This document shows, piece after piece, positions 1,363 through 42,531 of a stretch of 48,060 nt of DNA. The notes below the pieces were generated by a model. The model saw only the letters and a list, made by a program, of their open reading frames with translations. It was not told the DNA's origin and did not search any database. The stretch is taken from NCBI GenBank assembly GCA_021372615.1, contig JAJFUB010000112.1, forward strand, positions 1 through 48,060, read 5' to 3'. The stretch's first letter is position 1. Each line of letters opens with the position of its first letter. The translations under genes and the position numbers were made by a program. This stretch comes from a bacterium. GTDB lineage: Bacteria; Armatimonadota; Zipacnadia; Zipacnadales; UBA11051.

Positions 1363-4224
1363 ATGCCTCGGCCGGTCCTGATTCCCGCTCTGCTTGCCCT
1401 GCTGTGGCCCTGCGCGTTCTGCTCGGGGGACGGGCTCGCCCAAGTCATCGGCTATGTCTCCTCCCTGGACCAGTCGGTGCAGCAGTATGGCGTCTACCTG
1501 CCCGCGGCCCCGGCGCCCTCCCCGGCGGGCTATCCGGCCATCCTGCACATGCACGGCTACGGCTGGTCGGTCAGCGCCGGGTTCTCGGACTTCCAGAAGC
1601 GCTGGGCCGAGGACCACGGCTGGATTCTCATCAATCTCAACGCCCGCGGGCCCCAGTTCTATGAGGGTGTCGGCGATGTCGAGACCCGCAACGTCGTGCG
1701 CGATGCCCACGAACGGTTCGGCCTGGACCTGGGGCGCCTGTTCCTGACCGGCGGTTCCATGGGCGGCACCGGCGCCTACCGCATGGGCATGCGCTATCCC
1801 GACCTCTTCACCGCTGCCGTGGGCGTGGATGGCTGGTCGGACTACCGCGAGTGGCACTACCACTGGTACGCCCGGACCGACCAGCACTCCGACATCGAGG
1901 AGTTCCGGCGGCCCCTGCTGGAAGCCATCTCGCCGCTGTACTGGGCCGGGCGGACCCGCTGGAACGCCATCCAGACCTCCGTCAGCGGCCGCGACAACGT
2001 GGTGCTGCCCGAGAACGGCCTGCTGCTGTCCAACGCCCTTGGTGTCCGGGCCCAGCAGACGCCCGGCGCCTACGCCAACCGCCTCTTCGTGGACTACGAG
2101 GCCGGTCACTGCGGCAGCACGCGCCTGGACCAGATCTACGAGTACTTCCTGCACCGCCAGACCCATCCCAATCCTCCCGGCTTCCTATGCGAGACGCCAC
2201 TGCTGGCCCACGGGCAGATGTACTGGGGCAGCATGTTGCGGCTGAAGGTGCAGGGGGCGTCGGCGGCGTTGGAGGCGACCGTGGACCCGGGGACGCCGTT
2301 GGAGGGGCCGGCTGATAGCCGGCCCGCCGTGGCCGCCGCCGGTCATCAGCCATCCGGGGAGCTGGTCGCGTCCGCCACGAACGGCGGGCCGGCTGATAGC
2401 CGGCCCCTCCGAACGGCGACGGCTACTGTCCTCACCCGCAATCTGAGCCGAATCGCCGTGCATCTGCAGGCCTCGCCGGCCGCCGAAGCTCGCGATGTGG
2501 CCCTGTACGTCGATGGCTTCCTGGCCTACCAGGGACCGCCCCGAACGGTGACCCTCCAGGCGGACTTCTCGCCGAAGGGTGACCTGTGGGGGTGGGCGGA
2601 GACGGGGGCCGCGAGCGAGACCGGGACGGCGGGCCGGCTGGTAGCCGGCCCCTCCAACGGCCTGGCCAAGACGCCGGAGCTGGAGGGGCCCCTCGGCGAG
2701 GCCTTCAAGCGGCCGTTCCTGGTAGCCTACGGCACGGACGGCGCGCCCGAGCAGGTGCGCCGCAACCGCCGCGAGGCCGAGGACTTCGCGCGCGGCTGGA
2801 ACGGCTTCATGGTCCATGCCGACGCCGTCGCCGCGGTGCCCGAAGAGCGCGTGCCGGCCGCCGACGTAGCGAGCAAGTCTCTCGTCATGTTCGGGACCGA
2901 ACAGAGCAGCCGCCTGCTGCGCGAGGCCAATGCCCGGCGCGAGCTGCCCGTGCACATCACTGACGATGCCATCACCGTGGCCGACCCGCAGTGGGGCGAC
3001 CGGGCGTACCGCGGGAGCCAGTATGGGGCCTTCCTGTGCTTTCCCAACCCGCTGTGCGACTTCCGGCAGTACCTGGTGGTATGTCGCGGCCAGTGGGCGA
3101 CCAAACCCAACGGTTCGGCCCGGCAGGGGCTGGAGTACGACCTGGAGAAGTTGCCGTGGGCGTATTCTGACTACGTGGTCTTCGACACGGATCAGCGCGA
3201 GCTGCCGCATGTGCTGAATGTCAACAACAAGCCGCCGGTCACGTGCTATGAGGCCGGCTACTTCGTCGAGGCGGGGTACTTCGACCAGGACTGGCAACCC
3301 TATCGCGCGGCGACGCTGGACCGGGTGCGGGCCCAGGGCCTGCCGACCCGCCTGGTACATGTCGAGCAACTGCGCCCCTCGGCCGCCGGGTTGCAGGTGC
3401 TGATCGCGGATGCCTCGGGGGCGCTGGTGCCCCAGGCGCGGGTGACGGTGAGCGGCTTCGGGAGCCCGCCGGTGACCTCCTCGGCGGTCACGGATGGCGC
3501 CGGCCTGGCCACGTTCCCGGTGCTCGCCGCTGGCACGCCTGCCAGCGTCGTCAACGTCATGGCGACCGGCGCGGAGTATGACTGGCAGGCCGACCGCGTG
3601 TCGGCCACCGGACAGGGCGGGATCGGGCTGGCGGCTCGCGCCGCTGCACCCGATGAGAACGGCCGCGCCCGGGTGACGCTCGATCTGAACAGCGACCACC
3701 CCGAGCGCGTGTCGGCGCGGCTGCTCGTCCCCGTGGGGGAGGTGGACCAGCCCGTCCGCGAGGTCGCGCTGGCGGAGGGGCAGGGGTCCTCGGTCGCCCT
3801 GGAGTGGCGGCTGCCCGGTGTCCCGGCCGGGACATACCGGGCTCTGGCAGAGGTGACATCCAGCCGGCGGCCGGTGCGCTTCTCGCGGCCGGTCTTCGTC
3901 ACGGTCGGCTTGTGGGCGGACAGCCCGCTGCGGGTGACGGAGCTTGTTCCGACCGACATCGGGCTGGGGGCGGCATGGCAGGTTGCCGTGCGTGTCACCA
4001 ACTTCGGGACCACACCCGAGACGGTCACAGTGCGCCTCGCGCTGCCGACCGACCGGTGCTACCCCGAGCCGCAGTCGGTGACGCTCGAACCGGGGAAAGA
4101 GACGACAGTCACGTTCAAGCAAGCGCCGGGCACGCCACCGCTGGAGCAGGGCCTGCACCCGGTGCGGGCGTATGTGCAGGGGCATCGCGGCGCTGTTGCC
4201 TATGCTGAGTTTACGGTGAAATAG
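1363..4224 (+). CDS. Secreted alpha/beta-hydrolase (esterase/prolyl-oligopeptidase-like) with C-terminal beta domains
   Basis: A 953-residue protein. Residues 1-26 form a signal peptide (basic start, leucine/alanine core), so the ATG at 1363 is chosen over the long upstream extension of the frame. Residues ~30-275 are an alpha/beta-hydrolase: oxyanion-type H-M-H-G-Y-G near residue 63, nucleophile elbow G-G-S-M-G-G with Ser132, and a likely catalytic His249 (A-G-H-C-G-S). The rest looks like stacked beta domains: a carboxypeptidase-regulatory-like segment around residues 675-740 and a CARDB-like segment at the C-terminus. Three palindromic repeats are embedded in the coding sequence (residues about 314-351 and 422-432), in a linker-like region. 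Next to a PL11 lyase, a polysaccharide esterase is plausible; peptidase activity is not excluded. Confidence 0.75.
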   Translation: MPRPVLIPALLALLWPCAFCSGDGLAQVIGYVSSLDQSVQQYGVYLPAAPAPSPAGYPAILHMHGYGWSVSAGFSDFQKRWAEDHGWILINLNARGPQFYEGVGDVETRNVVRDAHERFGLDLGRLFLTGGSMGGTGAYRMGMRYPDLFTAAVGVDGWSDYREWHYHWYARTDQHSDIEEFRRPLLEAISPLYWAGRTRWNAIQTSVSGRDNVVLPENGLLLSNALGVRAQQTPGAYANRLFVDYEAGHCGSTRLDQIYEYFLHRQTHPNPPGFLCETPLLAHGQMYWGSMLRLKVQGASAALEATVDPGTPLEGPADSRPAVAAAGHQPSGELVASATNGGPADSRPLRTATATVLTRNLSRIAVHLQASPAAEARDVALYVDGFLAYQGPPRTVTLQADFSPKGDLWGWAETGAASETGTAGRLVAGPSNGLAKTPELEGPLGEAFKRPFLVAYGTDGAPEQVRRNRREAEDFARGWNGFMVHADAVAAVPEERVPAADVASKSLVMFGTEQSSRLLREANARRELPVHITDDAITVADPQWGDRAYRGSQYGAFLCFPNPLCDFRQYLVVCRGQWATKPNGSARQGLEYDLEKLPWAYSDYVVFDTDQRELPHVLNVNNKPPVTCYEAGYFVEAGYFDQDWQPYRAATLDRVRAQGLPTRLVHVEQLRPSAAGLQVLIADASGALVPQARVTVSGFGSPPVTSSAVTDGAGLATFPVLAAGTPASVVNVMATGAEYDWQADRVSATGQGGIGLAARAAAPDENGRARVTLDLNSDHPERVSARLLVPVGEVDQPVREVALAEGQGSSVALEWRLPGVPAGTYRALAEVTSSRRPVRFSRPVFVTVGLWADSPLRVTELVPTDIGLGAAWQVAVRVTNFGTTPETVTVRLALPTDRCYPEPQSVTLEPGKETTVTFKQAPGTPPLEQGLHPVRAYVQGHRGAVAYAEFTVK
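2301..2410 (+). repeat. Inverted pair of 30-bp palindromic repeats inside a coding sequence
   Basis: The 30-mer at 2301-2330 and the 30-mer at 2381-2410 are reverse complements of each other except for the central three to five bases. Each has palindromic arms GGGCCGGCT and AGCCGGCCC around GAT, with an asymmetric edge (GGAG on one side, GCCGT on the other). Both copies are read as G-P-A-D-S-R-P. The other frame through the centre would give TGA-TAG, so the element is only tolerated in some phases. The arrangement resembles twin REP/BIME units or the protein-internal palindromic elements known from Rickettsia. Confidence 0.8.
2626..2655 (+). repeat. Third copy of the 30-bp palindromic repeat, read in another frame
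   Basis: This copy has the same 30-mer as 2381-2410, with one change at the centre (TGGTAG instead of TGATAG). It lies in the same gene but is shifted by one reading phase, giving T-A-G-R-L-V-A-G-P-S instead of G-P-A-D-S-R-P. Conservation of DNA rather than peptide argues for insertion of a DNA element and against a duplicated protein motif. Confidence 0.8.
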
Positions 4225-8400: not shown

Positions 8401-8881
8401 AACGCCGCCCCTGCGCACGGTCCTGGCCCTGAAGGTGGAGGAGAAGCCGCTGCAGGGCGTACCCATGGCCCAGGCCGAGGACTTCAGCGACCAGAGCGGT
8501 GGCCAGGTACAGCTCCGCACCGACAAGCTCGGCGCGGTGGGCAAGGCCATCTCGCACTGGGACACCGCCGGACACATGCTGCAGTGGAAGATCAGCGTGC
8601 CGCAGGCGGGCAAGTACTGGGTCATCCTGCGGTGTTGTTCGCCGACGGGCGCCCAACGCGAGACCACGGTGGACGGCCTGGCCCCGCTCAAGCAGAGCTT
8701 CGGCAGCACCGGGGGCTTTGGCAGCGACACCAGCAGCGACTGGGCCCACCAGGCGGTGCGCGGCGCTGACGGCAACCGTGTCGTTTTCGACTTGACGGCG
8801 GGCGAACATGCCATCAAGATGGTCAACCTGGACGGCAAAGGGCTGAATATGGACTACATTGCGCTGGTGCCCGCGAGGTAG
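5435..8881 (+). CDS. Secreted rhamnogalacturonan lyase, PL11-type (YesW-like), multi-domain
   Basis: A 1148-residue protein. A GGAGG box at 5426-5430 supports the tandem ATGs at 5435/5438 rather than the earlier ATG at 5405, and puts a signal peptide at residues 1-21. Order of domains: a CBM-like N-terminal region (~22-165), a CBM4/9-like jelly roll (~168-315, beginning G-V-A-N-G-G-F-E-F), the PL11 lyase core (~330-905), an Ig-like segment and a C-terminal CBM35-like domain (~1010-1148). The core shows the PL11 calcium-loop signatures D-L-N-G-D-G-K-L-D (near 450) and D-F-D-G-D-G-K-A-E (near 517), plus K-T-S-E-G-D-D. PL11 enzymes cleave the rhamnose-galacturonate backbone of pectin by beta-elimination. 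Length exceeds the usual ~600 residues because of the accessory domains. Confidence 0.88.
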
Positions 8882-8918
8882 CGACAGGCGCCGGGCATCG
8901 GGGATCGGGGACCGGAAC

Positions 8919-9920
8919 ATGCGAAGATCTGCCGCCGAACATGTTGACGTCGAACGCGAGGAGACCGGGTTGCCGGCCTTCTGGGTGACGCTCTACCTGT
9001 TGGCTGTGCTCATCGTCGGTGTCGCCGCCGGCACGCTCCTGGGCCGCCATCATGTGGGCGGCGTCGGGGACTTCTGGCGGCTGCTGCCGATGCTCCTGGT
9101 GGGCGAGGTGGTGATCTACCTGGTCATCCTGGCGGTGCCCGGCGACCGGGTGGTGCCGCCGGGACGAGCCATGTTCGGCGTCGTGTTCGGCATGGCGATC
9201 CGTGCGCTGATGGCCTTCCTGACCGCCGCGGCGATGCGGCTGGGCGATCCCAGCGCGGGCCAGGGCGCCCTCATGGCCCAGACCTATGCCACTCAGTGGC
9301 TGGTCGCACTGACCCAGGTCCTGCTGGTCCTGTTCTACCTGTGGCTGATCCGCGGGGCCCTGGAGAGCGAGCAGCTCAGGCCGCCGCTCCAGCGTGCCCA
9401 GGAGGAGATCGTCGAGCAGGAGCGTCAGGAAGCCGAGCAGGCTGCCGAGCGGCGGCGGCGCCTCTTGAGCGCGCTGCAGGAAGTGCGCGGCGAGACCGGC
9501 CCCCTCCCCGAGCCGGAGCCCGTACAGCCCGAGCCGGAGCCCGTGCAACCCGAGCCGGAGCCCGTGCAACCCGAGCCCGAGCCCGTACAACCCGAGCCCG
9601 AGCCCGTGCAGCCCGAGCCGGAGCCCGTACAGCCCGAACCGGAGCTCGTGCAGCCCGAACCGGAGCCCGTGCAGCCGGAACCCGAGCCCGTGCAGCCCGA
9701 ACCCGAGCCCGTGCAGCCGGAGCCGGAGCCAGTACAGCCCGAACCGGAGCCCGTACAGCCCGAACCGGAGCCCGAAGCTGCCGGCGACGACACCGCTGCC
9801 TTCACGCCGGTGCAGTTGGCACGCGCCTCGCAACTGGCGCTGGACATGGATGAGACAGGCGCGGCGGCCGGTGACTCGGCGGCGTCTCCCGCAGATACCG
9901 AGCCGGAGGCCGAGAGATGA
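8919..9920 (+). CDS. Four-TM protein with twelve PEPEPVQ heptads
   Basis: A 333-residue protein of unrecognised family. The ATG at 8919 is chosen because the upstream extension overlaps the lyase gene. Four membrane spans are visible at about residues 20-42, 54-73, 84-105 and 125-146. A charged, probably coiled-coil stretch follows (147-190; rich in Q, E and R), then twelve exact seven-residue units P-E-P-E-(P/L)-V-Q at residues 197-280, a last P-E-P-E-P-E and a short acidic tail. The tail is likely cytoplasmic or periplasmic and extended; acidic Pro-Glu repeats often act as stiff spacers, as in TonB. The stop overlaps the next start (ATGA). Function unknown; it travels with the next two genes. 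Confidence 0.7.
9507..9776 (+). repeat. 21-bp tandem repeat coding for PEPEPVQ
   Basis: Twelve 21-bp units followed by a partial unit, all in frame. One unit has Leu for the second Pro pair (P-E-P-E-L-V-Q). Codons vary between units (GAG/GAA, CCG/CCC, GTG/GTA, CAG/CAA), so the repeat is old or under selection at the protein level rather than freshly expanded. Confidence 0.95.
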
Positions 9921-41901: not shown

Positions 41902-42036
41902 CGGTCGTGGGGCCCCGCCCACCTTCGCGCTACGCGCTACGGCGGGCACCCCACGACTCCACCGAGGGGAAGGAAGGGCTCGGGGGTGACGGGGGCTGCC
42001 GCCCCCGCCTAGATTGAGTCGGCCCTCCGGGCCTCG
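41902..42036 (+). repeat. Hairpin-rich repeat, copy A
   Basis: 135 bp starting CGGTCGTGGGGCCCCGCCC and ending GGCCCTCCGGGCCTCG. It can form three successive stem-loops: GTCGTGGGG with CCCCACGAC, GGGGGC with GCCCCC, and GGCCC with GGGCC. A conserved single-stranded CCTAGATTGAGTC separates the last two. Confidence 0.8.
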
Positions 42037-42095
42037 GCGGCAACGGCCCCCCGGGCAGTCGCCGATGGCGACGGTGGCGTGCGCGGAGCCGTCAG

Positions 42096-42212
42096 CGCCG
42101 GAGGCGCGGCTCAATCTAGGCGGGCGCGGCAGCGCCCGTCCGCCGGGCCCCCTCACCTTCCCCTCCGTCAGGAGCCCCGGAGGGGCGATACATTCGGCCC
42201 CGCCCACGGCCA
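42096..42212 (-). repeat. Hairpin-rich repeat, diverged inverted copy
   Basis: Begins GCGCCGGAGGCGCGGCTC, contains CTCAATCTAGGCGGG (the reverse complement of the conserved CCCGCCTAGATTGAG in copies A and B), then CACCTTCCCCTC and a GGCCCCGCCCA end. The order of blocks is that of copies A/B on the opposite strand. Boundaries are approximate. Confidence 0.6.
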
Positions 42213-42251
42213 CTGCCGCCGACGCGGCCGGAGGACGCCATGGGCGCCAAC

Positions 42252-42368
42252 CGGTCGTGGGGCCCCGCCCCTACGGGGCACCCCACGACTCTACCGAGGA
42301 GAAGGAAGGGACACGGGGTGACGGGGGCTTCCGCCCCCGCCTAGATTGAGTCGGCCCTCCGGGCCTCG
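42252..42368 (+). repeat. Hairpin-rich repeat, copy B
   Basis: 117 bp; same start and end as copy A, 350 bp further on. The first loop is shorter (CCTA in place of a 26-bp segment), leaving the GTCGTGGGG/CCCCACGAC stem intact, and the second loop differs (TTCC for TGCC) while the flanking stem is kept. Variation in loops with conservation of stems suggests that structure matters or that hairpin ends define the element. Confidence 0.8.
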
Positions 42369-42531
42369 ACGGCGGCGGTGGACGACACGCGACGGCAACT
42401 GCGCGCCGCCGGCGAGGGGCGGCCGCCTTGCACGCAAGTCTCCCCGCCGGTGGCACATCGCAAACGACGACAGAGCCGCCCTGGGTCCTGACAACGGCCA
42501 AGATGACGCTGGGAAAGCGCTAGGCCGTGGG

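Follow-up and report, generated by a model that had tools for sequence, protein, structure and literature searches.

A palindrome repeated in an esterase gene of the Armatimonadota, very probably a REP/REPIN-type element read in frame

How does one palindrome come to stand three times within a single reading frame? The question is raised by the gene of a secreted, esterase-like protein in the 48,060 nucleotides of armatimonadotal DNA analysed here, referred to below as the window (Table 1). Residues 111–260 of the product match Peptidase_S9 in Pfam (E 1.1e-6), and orthologues are found in most genomes of the order. A sequence-only reading of the window had taken the palindrome for a 30-nt mobile element inserted three times, in the manner of the Rickettsia elements. 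The palindromes are real and lie where that reading placed them (2301–2330, 2381–2410 and 2626–2655), but the unit extends beyond the 30 nt reported, to about 36 nt, as is shown by copies 1 and 3, whose complementarity runs over 36 nt (92%; 2295–2330 versus 2626–2661). With up to three mismatches allowed, the window contains seven core matches against 1.1 expected by chance, and none of the shuffles reached seven.

Copies 1 and 2 are inverted with respect to each other, 90% complementary and separated by a 50-nt spacer that is not common to other units, and together they fold as one long hairpin (−53.9 kcal/mol, z −7.95, strand fold). They form one inverted-pair unit of the REPIN type, and the three copies therefore need two insertion events rather than the three first proposed. 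The two members of the pair do give the same peptide, GPADSRP, and copy 3 is read in another phase, as TAGRLVAGPS, both as the sequence-only reading had it. The first two peptides are identical because copy 1 carries its 3-nt loop in the opposite orientation (GAT within 2301–2325, where the other copies mostly have AYY on the GGAG strand); copy 1 is the observed exception to the rule that loop orientation follows the tag, and exchange within a hairpin or cruciform could be the cause. The pair occupies the junction of the catalytic part with the module that follows, the linker position that had been claimed for all three copies, but copy 3 comes ∼65 residues later, at a turn within that module.

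Table 1. Features of the esterase gene and its palindromes (positions in the window)
Feature	Positions	Strand	Remarks
Gene carrying the palindromes: esterase-like secreted alpha/beta-hydrolase, 953 aa, ATG at 1363	1363–4224	+	ORF
REP copy 1	2295–2330	+	GGAG end on + strand, loop inverted relative to family; read as PLEGPADSRPAV; covariance-model match 2295–2333, E 1.4e-6
REP copy 2	2381–2416	−	GGAG end on − strand; read as GGPADSRPLR; covariance-model match 2378–2416, E 3.3e-7
REP copy 3, single	2626–2661	−	GGAG end on − strand; read as TAGRLVAGPSNG, residues ∼420–433; best covariance-model match genome-wide, E 7.3e-9
REPIN-like unit formed by the inverted pair of copies 1 and 2	2295–2416		GGAG ends outside; arrangement common to 25 genome sites
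Inserted protein segment, esterase residues 309–354	2287–2424	+	Without counterpart in orthologues; alignment with L032–L050

The element and its copies

The element is a polar 36-nt unit, GCCGTT-GGAG-GGGCCGGCTAYYAGCCGGCCC-GCCGT. In the consensus of 70 copies the outer GCCGTT is weak, GGAG is strong, a 9-bp stem GGGCCGGCT encloses the loop AYY, and the closing GCCGT is again strong. GGAG is kept in 66–69 of the 70 copies at each position and stands directly 5′ of the stem, giving the unit its polarity. The source assembly (6.41 Mb, 171 contigs, 96.7% complete) yields 57 + 53 matches to the core at one mismatch or less, counting both strands of the palindrome, and none to the core pattern read backwards. 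A covariance model built from 32 aligned copies and searched against the same genome recovers 78 copies at E ≤ 1e-3; four more from weaker model matches and the pattern search make up the working set of 82. The expectation that the palindrome would recur elsewhere in its genome is thus borne out, with ∼80 copies at 55 sites, and it is not unique to the esterase gene.

The 82 copies are arranged as 25 inverted pairs, one triple and 29 singles. All 25 two-copy sites are head-to-head (+−) with GGAG outside, and the spacing falls into two classes, 64–68 bp (12 pairs) and 77–83 bp (10 pairs), with a single case of 46 bp and two of 35 bp besides. Apart from a few bases beside the hairpins, the spacers have no sequence in common, which gives no indication that the element spread very recently. 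Neither an excision nor an unoccupied site was observed within the species. The innermost stem pair is C–G in 55 of the 70 copies and A–T in 13, with T–A also seen, and this replacement of C–G by A–T implies that the hairpin itself is kept. In all, nine cells of the comparison are changed on both sides of the stem, where shuffles give 2.7 ± 1.2; the other pairs are too constant to be informative on covariation. Inspection by eye of copies viewed with their flanks revealed no target-site duplication. The GCCGT found on both sides was considered as one and set aside, changes on the left and right not being correlated (judged by eye).

The distribution of the element is narrow. The order's other 40 genomes contain no match at one mismatch or less, and 60 relatives taken out to the phylum give one match with two mismatches. 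The exact 25-mer has two isolated matches among 84,980 species genomes, a scan that may leave out records very near the window's own genome; these two, in a Phycisphaerales MAG and a Methylobacterium, were treated as chance. The family is therefore either young or confined to the source lineage.

Insertions within genes and their reading phase

Twenty-three of the 55 sites (42%) are inside reading frames, 20 of them internal and 3 near a terminus, and the other 32 are outside genes. As the genome was unannotated here, the count is model-based, a codon-usage model trained on long ORFs being used to score both flanks, and doubtful sites were judged by eye. Two candidates were removed, C92:161728 and C166:11092: each has a stop just before the element, and our reading of the proteins places the former at a nuoI/nuoJ-like gene junction and the latter at a gene boundary.

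The hosts identified with Pfam include NAD-dependent DNA ligase (LigA), MutS2, an MrfA-like DEAD helicase, HypF, a photolyase and several glycoside hydrolases; the tRNA-modifying enzyme TsaD was identified against solved structures, with an 11-residue gap at the insert. LigA and TsaD are generally regarded as essential. The LigA insert interrupts a two-residue turn of the adenylation domain, falling between residues 160 and 163 of the E. coli enzyme (2owo). The helicase insert (299–338) lies between the DEAD domain, which ends at 263, and Helicase_C, which starts at 354; that of HypF (286–299) precedes a domain starting at 311, and that of MutS2 (268–304) an SH3-like domain starting at 308, both again interdomain. 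Across the host genes there is no positional pattern, the sites ranging from the N-terminus to the C-terminus.

Matches to the esterase in the genome search end at residue ∼308 and restart at ∼355. The sequence-only reading had predicted that the residues at the palindromes would be missing from orthologues, and this is what is found: 16 of the 19 aligned orthologues have nothing at residues 309–354 (one of the 19, L045, ends before the first insertion site), three (L032–L034) have an unrelated linker at that place, and the segment of about 13 residues at copy 3 lacks a counterpart in all 19. In relatives the insert is missing cleanly from LigA, and helicase orthologues are also without it. 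It is missing less cleanly from HypF and MutS2, comparisons that are weaker because linker lengths vary. The host proteins presumably still work despite their inserts.

The phase in which the element is read is far from even. Although the GGAG strand offers three stop-free frames, 11 of the 12 intragenic sites on it use one of them, PLEGPAISRPAV, each site being counted once by the first copy of a pair or by the single. The one-frame binomial probability is 4.7e-5, or 1.4e-4 when multiplied by three for the choice of frame; the phase tests are post hoc and treat sites as independent. On the opposite strand one frame has stops, and the sites are in the other two, GGPADSRPLQR (6) and TAGRLVAGPSNG (5). 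Phase A is found at 17 of the 23 intragenic sites, and the peptides are consequently similar between genes. Selection may have caused the bias. In-frame insertions that can be counted, with cleanly empty orthologues, offer material for testing whether it stems from selection on the peptide or from target choice.

Nature and mobilisation of the element

An interspersed palindrome of 20–50 nt with a 5′ tetranucleotide tag, spaced head-to-head pairs and compensatory stem changes is what defines REPs and REPINs, and all of these are found here. The three palindromes of the esterase gene are very probably copies of such an element, one that is mobile but non-autonomous, specific to its lineage and tolerated in frame. 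The nearest likeness in anatomy is the REPIN (BIME) of the GI group in Pseudomonas fluorescens SBW25 (PMC3116915), which shares the tagged short hairpin, the inverted pairs with tags outside, the singles that are likely remnants of pairs and a regular spacing, 71 bp in SBW25 GI and 64–68 and 77–83 bp here. The tag differs (GGAG here, GTAG there), the element described here has fewer copies and no cognate RAYT was found for it, and 42% of its sites are intragenic whereas the REPs of SBW25 were selected and described as extragenic (PMC3116915). It also resembles the intragenic GTAG REPs of Opitutus terrae and other bacteria (PMC3733652), which occur in frame as singles and HH dimers in many genes and sometimes make two insertions in one gene. 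DNA repair genes are frequent hosts of such in-frame REPs (Di Nocera et al. 2013, PMC3733652), and the hosts in common with that study include DNA ligase (O. terrae) and photolyase (Thauera). Sequence, tag and lineage are different from those of the O. terrae elements, and the phase bias and absence from orthologues were here checked gene by gene.

The element does not belong to either of the large groups. The tag variants of the GTAG superfamily are GYAG, GYRG, GTRG, GTMG and GTGG (PMC3733652); GGAG is outside them, and the element is therefore not filed there. Members of the CGTC superfamily have a terminal CGTC, TGTC or CCTC and stems beginning with A–T pairs (PMC3733652); here neither end bears such a tag and the stem begins GGG. 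The Rickettsia elements RPE-4 and RPE-6 (the CGTC-4 and CGTC-1 REPs) and RPE-1 are likewise palindromes read in frame in functional proteins, so that the analogy first drawn with them is fair as to behaviour, but the family that fits best is REP/REPIN rather than RPE. The sequences are unrelated, the CGTC tag is absent, RPE-1 units are longer, and the present genome is of free-living size (6.4 Mb) and high in GC. The lineage is indeed unrelated to Rickettsia, as had been stressed; in-frame REPs beyond Rickettsia, in O. terrae and others, had however been published already in 2013 (PMC3733652), and the phenomenon is for that reason not new. The novelty lies in the family, which is GGAG-tagged and outside the GTAG and CGTC groups, in the lineage that harbours it, in the bias of reading phase and in the parallel invasion described below. 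REP-type elements can thus inhabit coding as well as intergenic DNA in a lineage unrelated to Rickettsia.

RAYT enzymes are thought to move REPINs by working on their hairpins in single-stranded form (PMC3116915, PMC8266576). The source genome has seven Y1-type (Y1_Tnp) transposase genes, of which the NCBIfam REP-transposase model recognises five at E < 1e-16, and two above its cut-off. None of the seven has GGAGGGGCCGG hairpins within 1.5 kb in this assembly of 171 contigs and 96.7% completeness, and none was accepted as the cognate, their flanks carrying other palindromes or none. Because no Y1 gene is flanked by the element, we can only infer that it was mobilised by an enzyme of the RAYT type. 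Most likely a single-strand transposase (HuH, Y1, RAYT-type) would recognise tag and hairpin and copy the unit elsewhere, the moving unit probably being, as a rule, an inverted pair like copies 1 and 2; the enzyme may be encoded in an assembly gap, may have been lost or may be one of the seven Y1 proteins acting in trans. A unit entering a gene would survive only if it kept the frame, was free of stops and fell in a linker or surface turn, and its translation would then be a short segment rich in Gly, Pro and Ser. Two such events in the esterase would account for residues 309–354 (the pair) and ∼420–433 (the single).

Three other explanations deserve weighing. The element might be a palindrome of the Rickettsia type or a MITE, mobilised by a DDE-type or other transposase and REP-like in shape only. 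RPEs are characterised by in-frame insertion in many genes (PMC3733652), and the missing cognate RAYT would fit, but a tagged hairpin of ∼36 nt, single or head-to-head at regular spacing, is the anatomy of REPs and REPINs. MITEs have terminal inverted repeats of 15–30 bp and are 70–300 bp long (PMC3733652), no target-site duplication was recognised, and this genome has other palindromes with a direct link to RAYT genes. We regard such an origin as unlikely.

Even less probable is that the hairpins were domesticated and are kept for a role in mRNA or DNA. They are certainly very stable, and in enterobacteria REPs serve as nuclease barriers or as gyrase- or IHF-like sites, but here the host genes have no common position pattern, every sister genus is without the element, and Rfam contains no match for it. 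The idea with least to recommend it reverses the relation of DNA to protein: a repeated Gly/Pro linker peptide would have been selected, and its GC-rich codons would have produced the palindrome incidentally. The prevalence of phase A and the similar peptides would be expected from it; against this, most sites are outside genes, one DNA sequence is translated in three phases and from either strand while compensatory changes preserve its stem pairing, orthologues lack the peptide, and the host proteins are unrelated. There is next to no chance that it is correct.

Other palindromes and parallel invasion

Most of the Y1-type genes L024–L028 and L030 have palindromes of their own nearby, so several REP families coexist in the source genome. 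A second family, CCAGTGCCGGCGTCTCGCCGGCCC, surrounds the RAYT-type gene L029 (G000:C146:72401–75556), with five copies adjoining it. Of its 23 scored sites 11 are intragenic, and it is read in frame in at least 11 genes (L138–L167); all but one of these sites read SAGVSPAQ or AGETPAL, that is 11 of 12 when the borderline L138 is counted.

In the nearest relative compared, G001, which is another genus, a different palindrome, CCCCTCTCCAC..GTGGAGAGGGG, occurs at ∼20 places; the window's genome has none. Two of its copies, ∼84 bp apart, are in frame in the G001 helicase (L132, G001:C2:119300–120800), in the same linker that is occupied by the GGAG element in the window's genome. Unrelated pairs of palindromes in one linker in two genera imply that two REP-like families entered it independently, and suggest that REP elements repeatedly supply bacterial proteins with new linker sequence. 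This recurrence, together with the bias of 11 in 12 in each of the two families, raises the tentative and rather doubtful possibility that the REP families here are shaped, in their own sequence or in the chemistry of insertion, for one harmless coding phase, so that spread within genes would be regular and not accidental.

The window holds further repeats. A third palindrome, of the GACGGGGGCTTCCGCCCCCGCCTAG type, has three copies at 41988 (+), 42320 (+) and 42116 (−), within a segment (41944–42378) that also contains a 103-nt direct repeat of 90% identity; palindromes of this type are found around the Y1 transposase gene L025 as well. A reading frame at 8847–9917 (+) carries a 21-nt tandem repeat (9444–9842) that is translated as VQPEPEP heptads following a hydrophobic N-terminal part.
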